A DNA stretch of 64,000 nucleotides from Colwellia sp. 75C3 (lineage in GTDB: Bacteria > Pseudomonadota > Gammaproteobacteria > Enterobacterales > Alteromonadaceae), in the NCBI RefSeq assembly GCF_002836255.1, contig NZ_PJAU01000031.1, forward strand, positions 186,001-250,000. The letters are read 5' to 3'. Numbering within the stretch: the first letter of the stretch is position 1; each line of letters starts with the position of its first letter. The notes under the pieces are model-generated. The model was not told the origin of the DNA, did no database searches, and saw nothing but the letters and a program-made list of their open reading frames with translations. A program made the translations under genes and the position numbers. Positions 1 to 10,826 of this stretch are shown one piece after another.

Positions 1-2349
1 TATCATCAATGGTCTGCGGTATCGACATTATTAAATACTGTAGAAAAAGAAGGTACTGGCGAAAAATATTTAATTCAACATAGTGCAGGTTCAGGTAAAT
101 CAAATTCGATTGCTTGGTTATCTCATCAATTAGCATCATTGCATTACTACTCAAACCATAAAGAATTAAAGAAAAATGTTGGTGATAAAGTATTTGATTC
201 AGTGATTGTTATTACTGATAGAACAGTACTTGATAGTCAGTTACAAGACACAATTTATCAGTTCGACCATAACGAAGGCATGATAGCTCGTGTTAACCGT
301 GAAGAAGCACAAGGTAGTAAATCAAGGCAGTTAGCGGGTGAATTAAAAGCTAGTACCTCAATTATCATAGTTACTATTCAAACATTTCCACATGTATTAG
401 AAGCTATTCGTAAAGATTCAACCTTAGCTGGTAGAAGCTTTGCTGTTATTGCAGATGAAGCGCATTCAAGCCAAACAGGTACAACAGCACGTAAATTACG
501 TGAAGTATTGATGTCTGAACAACTAGGCGATGATGAAGAGTTAGATAGTGAAGATATATTAAGACTGAGTTTAGAAGCCAGAAAAGGCTCTAAAAACATT
601 AGTTACTTTGCTTTTACTGCAACACCAAAGGGTAAAACACTAGAGTTATTCGGTCGTTGCCCAGATCCAGAATCACCAGCAAGTGATGAAAATAAGCCAG
701 AAGCCTTTCATGTGTATTCAATGCGCCAAGCCATTGAAGAAGGTTTCATATTAGATGTATTACAAAACTACACTAGTTATCGCGTAGCTTACCAATTAGC
801 GCATCAAAACCCTGATAGTGACCACGAAGTTGATAGTAAAAAAGCGGCTTCTAAAATGGCTAAATGGGTACGATTACACCCACATAATATTGCTCAGAAA
901 GTTGAAACCATTATTGAGCACTTCAATAGTAAGGTGAAACACTTACTTGGTGGTGAAGCTAAAGCTATGGTGGTGACATCAAGCCGATTAGAAGCAGTAA
1001 GGTACAAGCTGGCGTTTGAAAAATACGTTGCTAATAAAGGCTATGACAATGTAAATGCAATGGTGGCTTTTTCTGGTGAAGTGAATGACCCTGATTTTCC
1101 TGATTCCGCATTTACTGAAAAAAGTATGAACCCTAACTTACGTGGTAGAGACATGCGTAAAGCCTTTGATACTACTGATTATCAAATAATGTTGGCGGCA
1201 AATAAATTTCAAACAGGTTTTGACCAACCAAAGTTGATTGCAATGTATGTTGATAAGCCATTAAAAGGTGTTGAATGTATTCAAACACTTTCAAGATTAA
1301 ACCGTACTTACAAAGGAAAAGATAAAACCTTTGTTCTCGATTTTGTTAACGAACCTGAAGAAGTATTAGAAGAATTCAAAGTATATTTTCAAACGGCTGA
1401 GTTAGCTGGCGTGTCAGACCCTAATCTTGTGTTTGAAATAATGGATAAGCTTAATGCCGTTGGCATCTATCAATGGTCTGAAGTTGAAAACTTTGTAGAA
1501 GCTTATAACAACAAACGTACTAAACAAGAAAAGTTAGCCAATATTTGTAAACCAGCGGTTGAGCGTTTTTCTGTTCGTTATAAAGAAGCTACGCATGTAA
1601 TGGATATTTCTAGAGCTGAACTTGAAAAAGCCAAAGCGGAAAACAATGATAAGAAAATTAAATTTGCTGAAAATAGTGTTAAAAATGCTAAAGAAGCACG
1701 AGACATTATTGAAGTATTTAAAAAAGATTTAATATCATTTTGCCGTTATTACGAATTCAGTTCTCAAATTGTTGATTTTGATGATTTCGATTTAGAAAAA
1801 CTCAGTATTTTCGCTAAACACTTACATCCATTATTACGTTTTGATGTACTAGAGGATGATATTGATTTATCTGATGTGGCAATGACACATTATCGTTTAC
1901 ACGAACAACGTGAAGCCAACTTACAGCTAGGTCATAAAGTAGGTGAAGAACCTGCATCATATTTAGCACCAACTAAAGAAAGCAGTGGAGCAACCCCCAA
2001 GGATGCTCAAACTGAATTATTAAATGAAATAATCAGCCGAATGAATGATCTGTTTGTTGAAGATGGATTAACTGAAGGCGATATGATCAATTATGCCAAT
2101 ACCATTGCTGGCAAGGTTGCGGAAAATGAAACCGTAATGGATCAACTTCGCAACAACACCAAAGAACAAGCCATGTTAGGTGCATTCCCTGAATCAATTA
2201 ATGATGCAGTAATACAAAGCATGGGCGTACATGAAAACATGGCTATGAAAGTGTTATCGAACGAAGCAGTAGCTAAAGGCTTTGCTGAACTGATGTTTGA
2301 TGTATTGATGAAGGGTTTGGGAAATACTGATACTACGGTTAATAAGTAG
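1..2349 (+). CDS. Type I restriction enzyme R subunit (HsdR-like), 5' end outside window
   Basis: The frame is open from base 1, so the gene starts upstream of the window and the N-terminal nuclease domain is not seen. It encodes the ATP-dependent translocase of a type I restriction-modification complex. Visible motifs: Walker A (SAGSGKS, bases 82-102), DEAH box (bases 454-465), FTATPKGK (motif III-like, near 610), and the motif VI-like QTLSRLNRTY near 1280. A Lys/Glu-rich, probably coiled segment (about bases 1600-1720) and a helical C-terminus follow, as in the EcoR124-type R subunits. No HsdM or HsdS is in the window; they may lie upstream. It is followed 120 bp later by two other accessory genes on the same strand. 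Family assignment is firm; whether it works as restriction or as another helicase-based defence is unknown. Confidence 0.88.
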   Translation, partial: YHQWSAVSTLLNTVEKEGTGEKYLIQHSAGSGKSNSIAWLSHQLASLHYYSNHKELKKNVGDKVFDSVIVITDRTVLDSQLQDTIYQFDHNEGMIARVNREEAQGSKSRQLAGELKASTSIIIVTIQTFPHVLEAIRKDSTLAGRSFAVIADEAHSSQTGTTARKLREVLMSEQLGDDEELDSEDILRLSLEARKGSKNISYFAFTATPKGKTLELFGRCPDPESPASDENKPEAFHVYSMRQAIEEGFILDVLQNYTSYRVAYQLAHQNPDSDHEVDSKKAASKMAKWVRLHPHNIAQKVETIIEHFNSKVKHLLGGEAKAMVVTSSRLEAVRYKLAFEKYVANKGYDNVNAMVAFSGEVNDPDFPDSAFTEKSMNPNLRGRDMRKAFDTTDYQIMLAANKFQTGFDQPKLIAMYVDKPLKGVECIQTLSRLNRTYKGKDKTFVLDFVNEPEEVLEEFKVYFQTAELAGVSDPNLVFEIMDKLNAVGIYQWSEVENFVEAYNNKRTKQEKLANICKPAVERFSVRYKEATHVMDISRAELEKAKAENNDKKIKFAENSVKNAKEARDIIEVFKKDLISFCRYYEFSSQIVDFDDFDLEKLSIFAKHLHPLLRFDVLEDDIDLSDVAMTHYRLHEQREANLQLGHKVGEEPASYLAPTKESSGATPKDAQTELLNEIISRMNDLFVEDGLTEGDMINYANTIAGKVAENETVMDQLRNNTKEQAMLGAFPESINDAVIQSMGVHENMAMKVLSNEAVAKGFAELMFDVLMKGLGNTDTTVNK

Positions 2350-2469: not shown

Positions 2470-3774
2470 GTGGGTAAAGGTACAGCGCAACAAAGGTTTT
2501 TTGATTTTTTAATACTTAAACAAAAACAAGTAAAAACTTTTAATAAGGCAGAGGTGATTAAAGCTACCGATTGGAAACCTGATACCTTTAAAACCTACTT
2601 TGGTAAAGGCCAGATTACTCAGTTCGTAATAAAAGTTGCAGATGATAAATATGAAGCGATCAATACGCTAGATATTACCTTTGTTGAATTTAAGAAAAGA
2701 CTATCTCAAAGTAAGCATTATCAAGAACTAGGACACAAATGTAAGTCTAACCTTGCTAAGGCTCTGTTGAAAAAATCTCGTGATAATATGATGTTGGCAC
2801 TTGAACTTTATAATAGACCGTCATTAGAAAATAAACTTGATGGCTTTGTTATGTTGTTTTCAACCTCTTGGGAGCAATTATTAAAAGCTATGCTTATAGA
2901 AAGAGATGGCGAAGAAAGTATATACAGGACAGCGACAAAAAAAGGGATTAGAGAGACAATTTCTTTGAGAGTTTCTTTAGATAAACTACTTAAAGCTAAT
3001 GATAAAGTAAGAAAAAACATTGAAACTATTGCTGATTGGCGAGATAAGGCTGTTCACTTACTAATGCCTGAATTACAGGGTTTGGCTTCTCGTATTTTTC
3101 AATCTGGTGTATTGAATTATTCAGCAAAATTTGAAGAGTTCACTGATACACCATTGTTTCATTCTCAACATAGTGGAATGTTATCACTCGTTGGTGACTT
3201 TAAGCTGCCACCCGCATCGGTTCTTAAAACTTTTTATGGAAGTGCAGCTAATGAAATTTTGGAGTTGGCTGCAAACGTTGAAAAAGAGATTGCAGACTCA
3301 AATGATATAGAATTTGCGATACCAATAAATGTATCGCTTGTTTATGCAAAGGATGGAAAAACCATCATTGCTAATGCCAGTGGTAAAACAGATGATTTGC
3401 AAAATTTGAAAAATGCTCTAATTATCAATAAAACCGTCAACCCAGAAGACTCGCACCCATTAACTCAAGCTAATGCGATTAAAGAAATTAAAAAAGAGTT
3501 ATTTGATAAATTTGACACCAATAAGTTAAGCAGGTGTTTAGTAAGTAGAGATAAAAATACAGGTAAACCGACCTTTAACTCTAACTGTTTTCAAGCTTGT
3601 TTACATAAGCTGAAATGGAAAGACGGTAACAATGAATACCACTTTTACCAGTCTATAGCCAATAAGCACATATTTTCACCAGAACTAGTTAGTGAGATAG
3701 TCAAAAGAACATCTCAAAACGAAAATTTTATTAAAGAAGCCAAAACAAGTTTAAATAAAAATAATAGAATCTAG
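2470..3774 (+). CDS. DUF3644-like protein with HEPN-type R-X4-H motif, putative defence gene
   Basis: The product is 434 aa with a GTG start and AAGGA 8 nt upstream. Residues 1-90 look like a small winged-helix or adaptor domain. Residues about 95-200 resemble DUF3644: an ALELYNRP segment (residues 110-117) followed by the helix FVMLFSTSWEQLLKAMLIE (126-144). At residues 191-196 the sequence RDKAVH has the R-X4-H arrangement typical of HEPN ribonucleases. The C-terminal half is Lys-rich and has no recognised motif. There are no membrane segments. It sits between an HsdR-like gene and a gene with a HicA-like tail, all on one strand, so a role in phage defence or abortive infection is plausible. 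That role, and any RNase activity, is inference; the motif is seen directly. Confidence 0.7.
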   Translation: MGKGTAQQRFFDFLILKQKQVKTFNKAEVIKATDWKPDTFKTYFGKGQITQFVIKVADDKYEAINTLDITFVEFKKRLSQSKHYQELGHKCKSNLAKALLKKSRDNMMLALELYNRPSLENKLDGFVMLFSTSWEQLLKAMLIERDGEESIYRTATKKGIRETISLRVSLDKLLKANDKVRKNIETIADWRDKAVHLLMPELQGLASRIFQSGVLNYSAKFEEFTDTPLFHSQHSGMLSLVGDFKLPPASVLKTFYGSAANEILELAANVEKEIADSNDIEFAIPINVSLVYAKDGKTIIANASGKTDDLQNLKNALIINKTVNPEDSHPLTQANAIKEIKKELFDKFDTNKLSRCLVSRDKNTGKPTFNSNCFQACLHKLKWKDGNNEYHFYQSIANKHIFSPELVSEIVKRTSQNENFIKEAKTSLNKNNRI

Positions 3775-3800: not shown

Positions 3801-5252
3801 GTGAATAATAGTCGTCCAATCTTTTCAAAAACACTAAAAAAAGATTTAGTAAAAGATTACCGAGAGTCCGTTAATGAATCACTTGAGTCAAAGGTAGGTG
3901 TACCAAATTCGTTAAAGAAATTTTTAACGGATACCAATGATACATCTTATGTCGTATCTAAATTTGAACAAAGAGTGTTTTTTCCTGCTAATTTTAGAAT
4001 GGCTTTAAAAGATAACTATTCACTTGTTGTAGGCTTTTTTGAAGAAGCAATTGAACTTCATAATAAATACATAGCAGGGTGCCGATTCCCTGATGATGGT
4101 TTTGAGTGGTTCAACCAACCCGAACTTAGTGACTTTCAAGGTAGGTTGTTCAGAGCCTTTTCTATCTTAGGGAAAGCTTTGGCGCATAAAAAAAGAAGGA
4201 AGTCTGCTTATGAGGCTCAGGGTTTCTTGTTTAAGAATGTAACATCGCCATTAGACAAATTTACATGGAAAGAAGGTTGTCGCTTGGACTTTCTATTTCA
4301 ACAAAGCTTTGATTTATTAGTTCAATCCTATTTAAGTCAGTTTGTCAGCGATAGCATACAGGCTTCAAATGATATTAATCTTGATTATGGTATCTCTATA
4401 GATCATAAGAAAATGTGTCAAACCCCGTTAGAAGCTCACTTCTTAGATGAACAAATTAAGCTTTATAACGTTCAGGACTACGTAATCGCGGAGGATATCA
4501 TCGAGGGGTTAGCCTCTGACTTGGTATGTATGGAGACTAAATCTGTTATAAGTAACGAAGATTTATTATTTGATATTTATGAGTTAATTCCACTATATAT
4601 AAAAAGTTGGTCGCCTGATAAAAATAAAATTGTATTGAATGACCAATTAGCAATATTCCTGGTGATGGATTATGGATTCCCAAGCTTTGTTCTTGGCAAG
4701 ATTGATGATGAAGCTGCAAACCTTATTACATCAACCTTTCGTTTTTCATGGTCTGTAACAAATGAGTTTAGATGTTGGGCAAAATTAGATGTTGAATCTG
4801 AAGCGTTGCAAAAAATAGGTAATTTTGTTCTAAAAGAATTTCATGACAAATTAGTATCCTTATTTGCTATTCGTAAGCCTGAAGTAAAGAAAATAGAACC
4901 AACGGAGTACGTTAACGACTATGCATATGAAGTAGCTGACTTTACTACTAAGTATTATCAAGCACTAAGTATCAGTGATTCTGTTAAAGAAAATCAATGC
5001 TCAGATGCACAGCGCATTAATGTTCCATCTATGATGATGTCATCGTTTTTCACTTTCATGCAAAAAACATTCGATTGCAAAGTTGATAATGGTAAAGGCA
5101 GTGAAATGAAAATATGGCGAAATGGTTCCAAAATATATACATTAGGAAGACATAAACAAGATCAAAAAATACCTTCATTGTTGATTAAAAAAGTATTGAA
5201 GCGCTTAGATATAACTACTGAAGAATGGTTGAGTTCACTGAAAAAGAGTTAA
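3801..5252 (+). CDS. Unrecognised protein with HicA-like C-terminal domain
   Basis: The product is 483 aa with a GTG start 26 bp after the previous stop; AAGGA lies about 11 nt before it. The first 400 or so residues are not recognised: mixed helical, acidic and aromatic, no signal peptide or membrane segment. The last 65 residues (about 415-480) follow the pattern of the HicA/YcfA double-stranded-RNA-binding-like toxin fold: FTFMQKTFDCK, then KGSEMKIWR, a GRH step, and the closing helices LLIKKVLKRLDITTEEW. Classical HicA has a catalytic His in a GSHH-type strand; here that position reads GSEMK, so it may bind RNA without cutting, or use the GRH histidine. It is probably in one transcription unit with the DUF3644-like gene. 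Function unknown. Confidence 0.65.
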   Translation: MNNSRPIFSKTLKKDLVKDYRESVNESLESKVGVPNSLKKFLTDTNDTSYVVSKFEQRVFFPANFRMALKDNYSLVVGFFEEAIELHNKYIAGCRFPDDGFEWFNQPELSDFQGRLFRAFSILGKALAHKKRRKSAYEAQGFLFKNVTSPLDKFTWKEGCRLDFLFQQSFDLLVQSYLSQFVSDSIQASNDINLDYGISIDHKKMCQTPLEAHFLDEQIKLYNVQDYVIAEDIIEGLASDLVCMETKSVISNEDLLFDIYELIPLYIKSWSPDKNKIVLNDQLAIFLVMDYGFPSFVLGKIDDEAANLITSTFRFSWSVTNEFRCWAKLDVESEALQKIGNFVLKEFHDKLVSLFAIRKPEVKKIEPTEYVNDYAYEVADFTTKYYQALSISDSVKENQCSDAQRINVPSMMMSSFFTFMQKTFDCKVDNGKGSEMKIWRNGSKIYTLGRHKQDQKIPSLLIKKVLKRLDITTEEWLSSLKKS

Positions 5253-5350
5253 TTCATAATAACTTTCTAACTCTTTTGAAATATAACCAATGCGGATTAC
5301 CCAATGCTAAATAACCAATAAATTGGGCTGTATGCTATATCTTCCTCTAG

Positions 5351-5394
5351 TTGAAAATAAACTTTAATGTAGTATACTGTTATTATATACAGTA
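5351..5394 (+). promoter_or_regulatory. SOS promoter with LexA box for the first dinB
   Basis: A -35 TTGAAA (5351-5356) and -10 TATACT (5373-5378) are 16 bp apart. Overlapping the -10 and start region is TACTGTTATTATATACAGTA (5375-5394), which has the full CTGT-N8-ACAG form of gammaproteobacterial LexA operators. It lies 49 bp upstream of the dinB start at 5443, so LexA would block RNA polymerase until DNA damage. Confidence 0.88.
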
Positions 5395-5442
5395 GCGTTC
5401 GTGTGGTTTTAGCAATAATGCGTATACTTGAAGTAGGTTAAT

Positions 5443-6507
5443 TTGAAAGATCGCAAAATCATACATATTGATATGGATGCCTTCTTTGTGTCTGTTGAAA
5501 TTAGAGATAGACCTGAATTGGTAAATCTCCCTGTGGCTGTGGGGGGAAGCTCTAAAAGGCGAGGTGTACTTTCTACTTGTAATTATATTGCTAGAGAATT
5601 CGGTGTTCGATCAGCTATGCCAACTAGTGTGGCAATGAGAAAATGTCCAAACTTGGTTCTAGTACCATCTAGAATGGATGCATATAAAGAAGTCAGTATT
5701 CATATCCGTGAAATATTTTCGCGTTATACTAGTATTATTGAACCCCTTTCATTAGATGAAGCTTACCTTGATGTTACAGATTGCAAATTATTTAAAGGTT
5801 CAGCCACTTTAATAGCACAAGATATTCGAGAAACAATTCATAGAGAGACTGGTTTAACTGCTTCTGCTGGAATCTCTGCTCTGAAATTTCTTGCTAAAGT
5901 TGCTTCAGACTATAATAAACCTAATGGTCAATTTGTTATCACACCTTCTGAAGTTTATAGCTTCATTGCCGAATTACCTTTAAATAAGATCTCAGGTGTA
6001 GGTAAGGTTACTTTTGAAAAACTAAAGCTATTAGGATTGGAGTATGGTCGAGATATTCAAGCCGTTGACCAGTCAGTTATTAATAATAACTTTGGTAAAT
6101 TTGGACAGGTGCTTTATCAACGTTGCCAAGGTATAGATGATAGAGATGTTGAAACAACACGAGTTAGAAAATCAGTTGGTGTTGAGAGAACATTTCCTGA
6201 AGATATTGATGACTTAGATATTCTTCGTAGTATTTTAACCGATAAACTAATACCTGAATTAAAAAGACGATCTGAAAAGTATCTGCATGAGCGAAAAATA
6301 AGTAAGTTAGGGGTAAAAGTTAAATTCAATGATTTCCATCAAACGACTAAAGATTTTGCTTATACTAACTTTGATGAGGGGATGTTTTTAGATCTGTTAA
6401 CAGAAGTAGTGAAACGTGGTGACGGTAAAAAGGTTAGACTTTTAGGCGTTCATATTGGCCTTAGTGACATCGAAGCTAAAAGTCAGCAATTTGAGTTATC
6501 ATTGTAG
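5443..6507 (+). CDS. dinB: DNA polymerase IV, complete copy carried by the accessory region
   Basis: Y-family translesion polymerase, 354 aa. The start is TTG (5443): it gives the standard N-terminus KIIHIDMDAFF, and the ATG at 5418 is in another frame and soon stops. Metal ligands are present: D10 in HIDMDAF and D105/E106 in SLDEAYLD. The helix-hairpin-helix region (KISGVGKVTFEKL) and little-finger domain follow, and the C-terminus QQFELSL fits the beta-clamp-binding motif. A LexA box precedes it. It is clearly divergent from the second dinB 217 bp downstream (many substitutions along the whole length), so it is not a recent duplication. Its position inside the accessory segment suggests that it arrived with the element and replaces the broken resident gene. 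Confidence 0.93.
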   Translation: MKDRKIIHIDMDAFFVSVEIRDRPELVNLPVAVGGSSKRRGVLSTCNYIAREFGVRSAMPTSVAMRKCPNLVLVPSRMDAYKEVSIHIREIFSRYTSIIEPLSLDEAYLDVTDCKLFKGSATLIAQDIRETIHRETGLTASAGISALKFLAKVASDYNKPNGQFVITPSEVYSFIAELPLNKISGVGKVTFEKLKLLGLEYGRDIQAVDQSVINNNFGKFGQVLYQRCQGIDDRDVETTRVRKSVGVERTFPEDIDDLDILRSILTDKLIPELKRRSEKYLHERKISKLGVKVKFNDFHQTTKDFAYTNFDEGMFLDLLTEVVKRGDGKKVRLLGVHIGLSDIEAKSQQFELSL

Positions 6508-6540
6508 AAAAGCTAGAAAGCAGCAAGTTATATCAATATC

Positions 6541-6734
6541 AAAATTGAACACTAAATATCCGCAATTATTTTATACTGATACAAATTTAGCACATTTTTA
6601 CCTTTTGAAAATTGAACACCAAAAATTGAACACTAAAAATAAGGTGTTTAGAGTTAAATAAAATTTATGTTTTGTTATAAATAAAGGCTCTTGGCTGTAA
6701 TTCACTCATTAATATATTAGTTAGTGTTCAATTT
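6541..6734 (+). repeat. Cluster of AAATTGAACAC repeats at element/dinB junction
   Basis: Three direct copies of AAAATTGAACAC(T/C)A occur at 6541-6554, 6608-6621 and 6622-6635. A fourth copy is inverted, TAGTGTTCAATTT, at 6722-6734. The inverted copy abuts the point where homology to the second dinB begins (about 6754). Spaced short repeats with TGT/ACA-type edges are what transposase binding sites at Tn7-like transposon ends look like, but no transposase gene is visible in the window, so that reading is an inference. Confidence 0.6.
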
Positions 6735-7767
6735 CCGTTTCTTAAAAAGTAAATATGCTGCTGTTGAAATGCGAGATTTTCCTGAGTATCAAAATATTCC
6801 CTTGGCTGTTGGGGGCGATGGCCCACGCAGTGTCTTATGTACGAGTAACTATCAAGCTCGTCAATTTGGTGTCCGTGCAGCGATGCCAGCCATTAAAGCA
6901 AAACAACTTTGCCCACATCTTAAAATTGTTCATGGCCGCATGGATGTATATAAAGAAACCTCGAAACATATCAGAGAAATATTTTCTCGTTATACCGATC
7001 TCATTGAACCGTTATCGTTAGACGAGGCTTATCTTGATGTCACCGATGCAACTATGTGTCAGGGCAGTGCTACCCTTATTGCTGAAAAAATTAGAGCTGA
7101 TATTTTTAATGAGTTAAAACTGACCGCATCGGCCGGCATTGCACCAAATAAATTTTTGGCTAAAATTGCTAGTGACGAAAATAAGCCTAATGGCCAGTGT
7201 GTTATTACCCCTGATAAAGTAGCCGGTTTTGTCGAGCAACTTTCATTGAAAAAAATCCCTGGTATTGGTCCAAAAACATTTGAAAAACTCAACAGACATG
7301 GTTATGTAACCTGTGCAGATGTGCGTCAAAGTGATATTAGAACACTACAAAATATCGTCGGTAAATTTGCCAATAGCTTGTACTTAAAATCCCACGGTGT
7401 CGATAATAGAGCGTTAGAGGTTAGTCGGCAACGCAAGTCACTCGCCATTGAAACAACGTTAGCACAAGATTTATCATCGCAAGATGAATGTGAACTCGTT
7501 ATAGAATCATTATATCAAAAACTGCTTACTCGACTTGCACCCCACAGTAATAGGGAGATTATTAAGCAAGGGGTAAAGCTAAAATTTGCTGACTTTAATC
7601 AAACTACGGTTGAGACACAAAGTAATGAATGTCAGCAGGCACTTTTTACAAGTTTACTGTCAAAGGCATATAGCAGGTCAAATCAGCGTGGCATACGTTT
7701 GGTCGGATTAACGTTAGGGTTTGCTGATAATCCAGGAGAAAGCCAACAGATGTCGTTTTCACTGTAG
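6724..7767 (+). pseudogene. dinB: Resident DNA polymerase IV, 5'-truncated by insertion
   Basis: From codon 11 (base 6754, YAAVEMRD) to the end this is a normal DinB: VLCTSNYQARQFGV, SLDEAYLDVT with the second metal ligands, the helix-hairpin-helix PGIGPKTFEKL, and the clamp-binding tail QQMSFSL. The first ten codons available (GTG at 6724) read MFNFRFLKSK, which is unrelated to DinB and is made from the repeat-bearing junction. About 12 native residues are missing, including the first catalytic Asp of the HxDMDCF motif, so a product would lack a metal ligand. It has no LexA box of its own. The rest of the frame has no stops, so the break may be recent. It lies next to core genes (alaS), which marks it as the resident copy. 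Confidence 0.85.
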
Positions 7768-7774
7768 TATTTCT

Positions 7775-7925
7775 AGTAATTCCATTAAAGTATCTCCTAC
7801 TTTAGTATAAATTAGACTTCGTTTATTTCATTCCCAATAGCCTGCTATTGCTCAATCGAGCGCCTTATCTTGATTAACTATTCTTTCAAACAAGAAGATC
7901 AGAAACTTAACTGAACTAATATTAC
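7775..7925 (-). mobile_element. MITE-like dispersed repeat, copy 1
   Basis: This segment matches the reverse complement of 31965-32124. A 23-nt core is identical (7844-7866 against 32021-32043) and contains the palindrome CAATAGCnnGCTATTG type hairpin. The ends also correspond: TAATTCCATTAA at 7777-7788, and AACTTAACTGAACTAATATT at 7903-7922 against the other copy's end. It is non-coding and about 150 bp long. It starts 8 bp after the truncated dinB stop and ends inside the remnant of a gene. The ends of copy 1 are more decayed than those of copy 2. Confidence 0.7.
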
Positions 7926-8080
7926 GTGGTCATGCATGGCTATACATTGGTAATGAAGTTGAGCAAATGGGTTTATGTCCAACATTTATCCAATAATAGC
8001 GTGAAAGTTGTGAAATTGATTGGTATCTTCAAGCTGAGCTTGCGTATAATAAGCAGCATAAAAAGAACAAGCTAAGATAA
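7926..8080 (+). pseudogene. Remnant of a small protein gene with two in-frame stops
   Basis: Just after the MITE-like repeat the sequence reads like protein: GHAWLYIGNEVEQMGLC, PTFIQ, then TAA TAG at 7994-7999, and in the same frame ESC, EIDWYLQAELAYNKQ, ending at TAA 8078-8080. The composition and the continuation in one frame across two stops suggest a formerly intact gene that lost its 5' part to the repeat. The family is not recognised. 8081-8195 holds only the leader of alaS. Confidence 0.5.
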
Positions 8081-8195: not shown

Positions 8196-10826
8196 ATGAT
8201 TAAAAGCACCGCAGAAGTCCGTCAGGCATTTTTAGATTTTTATGCCACCAAACAACATCAAATAGTTAAAAGTAGCTCACTGGTTCCTGGTAATGATGCA
8301 ACGTTATTATTTACCAATGCCGGCATGGTTCCTTTTAAAGATGTTTTTTTAGGTGCTGAAAAACGTAGTTATACACGAGCCACCTCTGCACAACGTTGTG
8401 TACGAGCCGGCGGTAAACATAACGATTTAGAAAATGTTGGCTACACTGCACGTCATCACACATTTTTCGAAATGATGGGTAACTTTAGTTTTGGAGATTA
8501 TTTTAAAAATGAAGCGATTAGCTATGCTTGGGAGTTTTTAACTGGCGAATTAGGGCTAGCAAAAGAAAAGTTATTAGTCACAGTATATGCCACCGATGAA
8601 GAAGCTTTCTCTTACTGGAGAGATGAGATTGGTGTACCTGAAGATAAAATAATTCGTATTGGTGATAAGTCAGCGAATAAAAAATATGAATCAGATAACT
8701 TCTGGTCAATGGGTGATACTGGGCCTTGTGGACCTTGTTCTGAAATATTCTATGATCACGGGGAAGACATCTTCGGCGGACCTCCAGGCTCCCCTGATGA
8801 AGACGGTGACCGTTTTATAGAGATATGGAACATAGTATTTATGCAGTTCAACCGTCAAAGTGACGGCCGCATGGAGCCATTACCTAACCCATCAATTGAT
8901 ACTGGCATGGGCTTAGAGCGTATTTCTGCAATTATGCAAAATGTGCATAGCAACTATGAAATTGATATTTTCCAAGCACTAATTAAAGATACTGCAGCAT
9001 TACTTGATTGCAGTGATCTTGAGCATAAATCACTACGTGTTATTAGTGATCATATTCGCTCATGTAGCTTTTTAATTGTTGATGGGGTTGTACCGTCAAA
9101 TGAAGGCCGAGGTTATGTACTTCGCCGCATTATTCGTCGTGCTATTCGTCATGGTCATAAGCTAGAAGCGACAGGACATTTCTTCCATAAACTTGTTGCC
9201 TCATTAATTGCTCAAATGGGAGAAGCCTACCCAGAGTTAGCTCAGCAACAAGCAATTATTGAAAAACTACTACGTATTGAAGAAGAGCAGTTTGGTCGAA
9301 CTCTTGATCGTGGCATGATCTTATTAGAAGATATTTTAGCTAACTTATCTGGCGATATCATTAAAGGTGATGACGTCTTTAAGCTGTATGATACCTACGG
9401 TTTTCCTGCCGACTTAACGGCAGATATTGCCCGAGAGCGTAACTTGAAAATTGATAAAGATGGTTTTGATGTTGCGATGAAGCAACAGCGAGAGCGTGCC
9501 CAGCAAGCAAGTCAATTTGGCACTGATTATAATCAACAACTGAAATCTGACCAAAATACAGCCTTTAAAGGCTACGATAATGACTCATATTCTGCGACTG
9601 TCGTTGAGCTATTTAACAGCCAAGATCAAGACCCTGTTAGTCAACTAAATTCAGGTGAACAGGGCATTGTGATATTAGATCATACGCCATTTTACGCTGA
9701 ATCAGGCGGTCAAGTAGGTGATAGTGGCTTACTTCACCTTGATGGCGGAGTATTTGAAGTAACAGATACAATTAAGTTAGGTAATGCTTTTGCTCATAGA
9801 GGTACCGCGCGTACTGATGTTGGCTTAAATCGTCGAGTAAAAGCCGAAATTAATGTTGAACGCAGAGCCGCTATTGTTAAAAACCATACTGCTACCCATT
9901 TGTTACATGCCGCTTTACGTAAAGTATTGGGTGATCATGTTACTCAGAAAGGTTCATTATGTGATAGTGATAAATTGCGCTTTGATTTCTCTCATTTTGA
10001 AGGTGTTACCGCTCAAGAATTACATACGGTTGAGCAAATGGTTAATGATGAAATTCGTCGTAACCACTCAAAACAAACTGAATCTATGTATATTGAAGAA
10101 GCTAAAGAAAAAGGTGCTATGGCTCTCTTTGGTGAGAAATACGATGATGAAGTGCGTGTAGTAACCTTAGGTGACTTTTCAATAGAGCTGTGTGGCGGTG
10201 TGCATGTTAATAGAACGGGTGATATCGGTTTATTAAAAATTGTTTCTGAATCAGGCACTGCTGCTGGCGTTCGTCGTATTGAAGCGGTTACGGGTACAGG
10301 AGCACTTGATTTTATTAATCAACAGACAGCCTCTTTAACGAGTATTGCAGCGCTGGTTAAAAGTGATGTAACTAATGTGAGTAGTAAAGTTGAGCAACTT
10401 GTTAGTAGATTTAAGCAGCTAGAAAAAGAAGTTAGCCAACTAAAGCAGGAGCTAGCAGCGCAAGCCGGATCTGATTTAGTTAATAACACTATTGAAATTA
10501 ATGGCGTCAAGGTACTCATTGCTGATTTAGGTGGTGTAGAAAGTAAAGCACTTCGCGGCATGGTTGATGAACTTAAAAATAAAATGCAATCAGGCGTTAT
10601 TATGCTGGCGACGGCTAATGGTCCTAAAGTTGGCTTAATTGCCGGTGTCACCAAAGACTTGGTTGGCCGTGTTAAAGCAGGCGAATTAGTTAATATGGTG
10701 GCTCAGCAAGTGGGTGGTAAAGGTGGCGGTCGTCCTGATATGGCACAAGCGGGTGGTACACAGCCTGAGAATATAACCTTAGCACTTGAAAGTGTCTCTG
10801 CATGGTTAACAGAAAAATTAGCTTAG
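8196..10826 (+). CDS. alaS: Alanyl-tRNA synthetase
   Basis: Charges tRNA-Ala in the cytoplasm. It is 876 aa, the same length as the E. coli enzyme. The class II catalytic core is at the N-terminus ([44 protein letters not shown]). The editing domain has the zinc-site pair [11 protein letters not shown] and [13 protein letters not shown]. The C-Ala domain ends with the Gly-rich [15 protein letters not shown]. The ATG start gives the expected [17 protein letters not shown] terminator follows, then csrA, which is the usual alaS-csrA order. Confidence 0.98.

Follow-up and report, generated by a model that had tools for sequence, protein, structure and literature searches.

Two isolated cases are known in which a mobile element breaks a conserved gene and replaces it. 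The island RME of Vibrio cholerae S24 splits recA, protects from DNA damage and carries, on the side away from the integrase, a complete and divergent LexA-boxed recA (PMC4405046). SE-6283, which targets bcp, brings along a bcp homolog. SEs are further characterized by a split attB that persists in attL and attR, imperfect inverted repeats around a 6-bp spacer at the joint, 6 bp from the left flank of the donor at attR, a strand-biased circle and the absence of an empty site (PMC10214605, PMC9345347, PMC5991714). The GInts (ginABCD) have been reported in ssb, an ABC transporter and a ribonucleotide reductase gene, and no rescue copy has been reported for them (PMC5385486). The locus described here falls into the target-rescuing class of RME and SE-6283, as a conserved gene is broken and a complete divergent copy is carried, so that the precedents which the original prediction had assumed for other targets do exist. 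Here the gene is dinB, for which we found no report as island target or rescue gene in the literature searched, most subscription journals being outside this search. We consider it very likely that a site-specific SE-like element splits dinB, that a carried dinB with a recoded target motif rescues the function and that the recombinase operon is placed behind the SOS promoter of the host gene.

The analysis started from a 64-kb stretch of a Colwellia sp. 75C3 contig (C33:186001-250000, in the following the window), in which two diverged dinB genes had been noticed side by side. Both open reading frames are present and adjoin each other (the right-hand one at 6724-7767) with 49% identity, and the left one is complete and preceded by a perfect LexA box (Table 1), as described before. 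In the right one homology to DinB begins only at YAAVEMRD, and the Asp is lost as had been stated; the loss amounts to about 15-16 residues and not to 12. The clustered repeats seen at the junction are also real: the window contains four copies of ATTGAACAC (three on the plus and one on the minus strand), all of them located within 6544-6732, with 0.81 copies expected and at least four in 0/100 shuffles. A related motif, ATTGAACA, is present in the left end of the element, and the repeats of the right end are probably recombinase-binding sites. The cargo gene hsdR starts left of the window with hsdM and hsdS ahead of it, and the 483 aa protein gave no match in Pfam, NCBIfam or PADLOC. Between the broken dinB and alaS a recX remnant with internal stops was observed (7925-8056; 44 aligned residues with 64% identity to the recX open reading frame of genome G036), and the ancestral gene order was probably hemH-dinB-recX-alaS.

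Table 1. Features at the right end of the element and in its flank (positions in the window).
Feature	Position	Strand	Evidence
hsdR, 3' part, element cargo	1-2349	+	ORF L004:9104-12349; PADLOC REase_I, MTase_I, Specificity_I
DUF3644/PDC-S19 candidate defence protein, cargo	2470-3774	+	Pfam PF12358 (9.6e-45); PADLOC PDC-S19 (4.6e-65)
Protein of 483 aa, cargo	3801-5252	+	ORF; no family match
LexA box of carried dinB, CTGTTATTATATACAG	5377-5392	+	direct reading
Complete carried (rescue) dinB, 354 aa, recoded target motif DMDAFFVSVEIRD	5443-6507	+	Pfam IMS (7e-49); relatives in other elements; tree; motif test
Right-end repeats ATTGAACAC, 3 direct and 1 inverted (putative recombinase-binding sites)	6544-6732		repeat count versus shuffles
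Right end of element and attR; 6-bp spacer TAAATA at 6750-6755, set by reading frame	6733-6755	+	junction comparison of 11 elements
Resident dinB, 3' part, without residues 1 to about 13 including Asp8 and Phe13	6756-7767	+	missing part at L005:14501-14548
alaS, conserved right flank of insertion site	8196-10826	+	same neighbour in intact loci

An insertion into the 5' end of dinB had been proposed, with the missing part of the gene expected left of the window, and it is indeed located there: directly after hemH (C33:170501 on) the contig contains the 5' remnant of the resident dinB, which reads MGNQKKIIHIDMDCF- (MGNQKKIIHIDMDCFF, then a stop) and has a LexA box (CTGTTTTTACGTACAG) just upstream. 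The remnant is followed by a four-gene tyrosine-recombinase operon, and the left end of the element lies ~15 kb upstream of the window on the same contig. If both parts are joined, they give in frame DCF(F/Y)AAVEMRD, the normal start of DinB, as in the genome G010, where the suggested comparison with an unbroken locus revealed hemH-dinB-alaS intact and without an element. The insertion separates the codon of Cys11 from that of Ala14. As the missing 5' end is found to the left and rejoins in frame, we conclude that the resident dinB is split by about 22 kb of DNA (C33:~170545-192755), of which the window holds the right end. The right-hand fragment lacks Asp8 and Phe13, which we take to be the metal ligand and the steric gate in E. 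coli DinB numbering, and should for this reason be inactive. Some of the annotated dinB genes at the hemH-alaS locus are therefore predicted to be inactive remnants.

Starting from the left junction, the operon encodes proteins of 423, 721, 893 and 163 aa in the order catalytic tyrosine recombinase, non-catalytic protein with recombinase fold, large catalytic recombinase and small auxiliary protein. The residues R..HxxR..H..Y are present in proteins 1 and 3 and missing in protein 2. An AlphaFold model of protein 2, made from the Pseudoalteromonas sister (pLDDT 78), had no match below an E-value of 0.001 in a plain Foldseek search; in a second-look alignment the top 21 rows were all topoisomerase IB or tyrosine recombinases (best Z 9.2), including topoisomerase IB, Cre, XerH, XerA, lambda Int, an integron integrase and Tn1549 Int. 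The cargo comprises the type I restriction-modification system, the DUF3644/PDC-S19 protein and a PDC-S31 protein, and the complete dinB is the last cargo gene beside the right junction. The four-gene recombinase operon at one end, the variable cargo with restriction-modification, the AT-rich other end, the high site specificity and the possible insertion at a gene 5' end are reminiscent of GInts. In GInts, however, the third protein is the non-catalytic one (GinC, next to catalytic GinA and GinB), whereas here it is the second, and a GInt was rejected for this reason. With RME the element shares the split SOS gene and the complete, divergent, LexA-boxed copy opposite to the recombinase end, but RME targets recA in the middle of the gene, has been described for one strain and has one phage integrase and a XerS-like recombinase with 9-bp inverted repeats instead of the present operon.

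Related elements were searched for with the recombinase genes alone as bait, dinB not being used. Twelve related operons are preceded by a dinB 5' end with its break at identical codons, IH[IV]DMDC[FY]: those of the window, Pseudoalteromonas caenipelagi, Paraglaciecola arctica, Ca. Colwellia aromaticivorans, Thalassotalea loyana, Psychrosphaera sp., Photobacterium sp. SKA34, Vibrio sp. ES.051, V. rotiferianus, V. inusitatus, V. tasmaniensis and G266, a genome of the same genus as Vibrio sp. ES.051. Ca. Colwellia aromaticivorans (L097), with the left junction present and no dinB match in the genome, was left out of the readable set, as was the composite Colwellia sp. 1_MG-2023. In all 11 readable genomes (the window and ten others from Pseudoalteromonas, Paraglaciecola, Thalassotalea, Psychrosphaera, Photobacterium and Vibrio) a truncated dinB, which resumes at AAVEMR, is accompanied by one complete dinB inside the element, as expected if the element supplies its own gene. 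Neither of the two results that had been named as contradicting the proposal was obtained. In nine of the 11 the complete copy adjoins the junction at the end distal to the recombinases, and T. loyana and Psychrosphaera have it at an internal position in inverted orientation. Six of the carried genes have a strict LexA box close to their start and five do not, so that a LexA box is not a universal feature of the carried copies. As the SLDEA catalytic motif is intact in all of them and LexA boxes are present in 6/11, it is plausible that SOS mutagenesis is kept by the carried dinB, as had been assumed.

The junctions of these 11 elements were compared with the position of the att spacer set by the reading frame. 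In eight elements imperfect inverted repeats surround exactly 6 bp (62% identity at offset 0, 0/2000 shuffles), and in the subgroup of the window, with P. caenipelagi and Paraglaciecola, the best inverted-repeat register is shifted by 4 nt. The arrangement in the eight elements, the occurrence in marine Gammaproteobacteria and the order and catalytic pattern of the genes (IntA, non-catalytic Tfp, IntB, small Srap) resemble SEs (PMC10214605, PMC9345347, PMC5991714); catalytic residues in genes 1 and 3 and their absence from gene 2 agree with the SE core genes. On the other hand, the target is dinB, the rescue gene is recoded at the target and the attR spacers, as far as seen, do not follow the left-flank rule of SEs: all elements are inserted in dinB and none of the 11 6-bp attR spacers is dinB-like, so that a fingerprint inherited from a dinB donor was not seen. 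Furthermore, hhalign against the SE proteins of plasmid pAQU1 revealed no profile similarity, with the comparison covering one SE and single-sequence targets. The architecture fits, but because homology to the pAQU1 SE was not detected, a proven SE is not adopted, and the element, judged by its sequence, is SE-like. The spacer TTGCGA is common to G266 and V. tasmaniensis.

In ten of the 12 dinB-site operons the LexA box of the resident dinB is kept upstream of intA, which starts 81-476 nt beyond the junction, in most cases about 95 nt. As the resident box is retained, the recombinase operon comes to lie behind an SOS promoter upon insertion, and movement of the element may be SOS-induced.

A DinB tree groups the broken copies mostly with residents of the host type, and the carried copies form a Vibrionaceae clade (six rows, 100/100) and an Alteromonadales clade (99/95) in which genera are mixed. 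The latter also contains the intact dinBs of G036, G020, G013, G028, G060 and a Pseudoalteromonas. Three of these intact genes, in G036 (L046), G020 (L042) and G013 (L044), are located within the hemH-alaS locus, and in G036 the carried-clade dinB after hemH is followed by about 5 kb, a dinB 3' fragment, recX and alaS. The intact carried-clade genes at the locus and the old 3' fragment in G036 suggest that the carried dinB sometimes replaced the native one permanently.

Resident dinBs read DMDCF[YF]AAVEMRD with few exceptions, and all 13 carried copies tested depart from this motif, with DMDAF[FY]VSVEIRD in one clade and a DLD[CS]Y[FY]-type in the other. In pairs of equal overall divergence, residents compared with one another have a target-motif identity of 0.87 and carried copies compared with residents one of 0.65, whereas the corresponding values for SLDEA are 0.86 and 0.88. 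Identity falls at the target but not at SLDEA, which confines the change to the insertion site. The favoured interpretation, suggested by this difference, is that recoding protects the rescue gene from insertion by the integrase. A serious competitor, which we place somewhat short of probable, is that the altered motif reflects only the ancestry of the carried genes and no selection for resistance to insertion. Only two carried clades exist, which means few independent events, and residents such as G061 and G086 (DMDAYFANVEIRD) or G167 (DMDSFFASVEMRD) are also off the common motif. Against ancestry, the two clades are altered differently at the target, and both keep SLDEA at resident level while the target motif falls.

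For protection by recoding we assume the following course. The recombinases would recognize the DNA of the dinB active-site motif, a target which the polymerase requires and which is presumably preserved in every host for this reason. The resident polymerase would be lost upon insertion and the carried dinB would restore DinB activity, in which case the insertion would not be selected against. With the target codons altered in the carried gene, neither the element nor a sister could easily enter it, and the resident SOS promoter left upstream of the recombinase operon could make movement SOS-inducible. The extended form of this model, in which target rescue is self-protecting by a recoded rescue polymerase, the host SOS promoter drives the recombinases, the native gene is sometimes replaced and the locus becomes refractory, is tentative and in our opinion possible without being the expected outcome.

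SOS polymerases are often carried by mobile elements, and the second dinB could be ordinary cargo, a useful translesion polymerase in an element that hit dinB by coincidence and without any rescue. RME, which sits in recA, carries umuDC (PMC4405046), and the two internal and inverted carried dinBs would also be in line with cargo. We regard this explanation as quite improbable, since a second dinB is present in 11/11 genomes with the element at dinB and in 0/9 genomes with related operons at other sites, each of which has a single complete dinB (Fisher's exact 6e-6, a value that ignores shared ancestry and overstates independence). Moreover, a different type of recombinase at dinB carries one too. 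G038, from the same genus as the window, contains beside the resident dinB 3' part a divergent operon of 382, 748, 673 and 194 aa in the opposite module orientation; profile comparisons revealed a distant relationship to the first type for genes 1, 3 and 4 and none for gene 2. Here the split is about 10 bp further upstream (MGNQKKIIHI/DMDCFYAA), and about 0.3 kb behind the promoter and start of the resident dinB there is a dinB with 94% identity to the carried copy of the window. Between this start and the carried gene no separate strict LexA box was seen, and the carried dinB may use the resident SOS promoter. The ends of this element are on different contigs and it was not read through. G005 has the same left junction with a dinB of 91% identity, and its contig ends just past dinB, before any recombinases. 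A tandem duplication of the host dinB with truncation of one copy and no mobile element, or an assembly artefact, as the two adjoining genes in the window taken alone might suggest, can practically be dismissed: the copies are 49% identical and in different parts of the tree, the 5' half lies ~22 kb away beside recombinases and the same structure recurs in 11 genomes.

Target rescue by a carried dinB turns the two isolated cases at recA and bcp into a comparable set, in which two genomes with the second recombinase type stand beside 11 readable elements of the first, from about seven genera in total. This set permits testing by what means a mobile element that destroys a conserved gene avoids the resulting cost, with divergence of the rescue gene at the insertion motif and not at the catalytic motif as a testable contrast. 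It also points to a way in which SOS polymerases may spread among marine bacteria.

Three further loci were observed during the search. In Colwellia sp. 1_MG-2023 (L106, L146, L147, L148) the locus is composite and contains three dinBs. One carried-type copy is complete and has a LexA box, and a second is cut at DMDAFYV next to a further tyrosine recombinase; an SE-like operon follows, and the third dinB, the truncated resident, is located far downstream. It is possible that elements are stacked here and that a carried-type dinB was itself cut. In G366 (L064) a related recombinase gene adjoins the apparent 5' end of a gene (MLNIVLYQPEIPPNTGNIM) which we presume to be trmL-like, so that the 5' ends of other conserved genes may be disrupted by sister elements as well. 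Finally, plasmid pXY8M38-1 of Shewanella xiamenensis (L142) contains a four-gene operon related to these, with a type I restriction-modification system behind it, and a plasmid of this kind is a possible vehicle for such elements.
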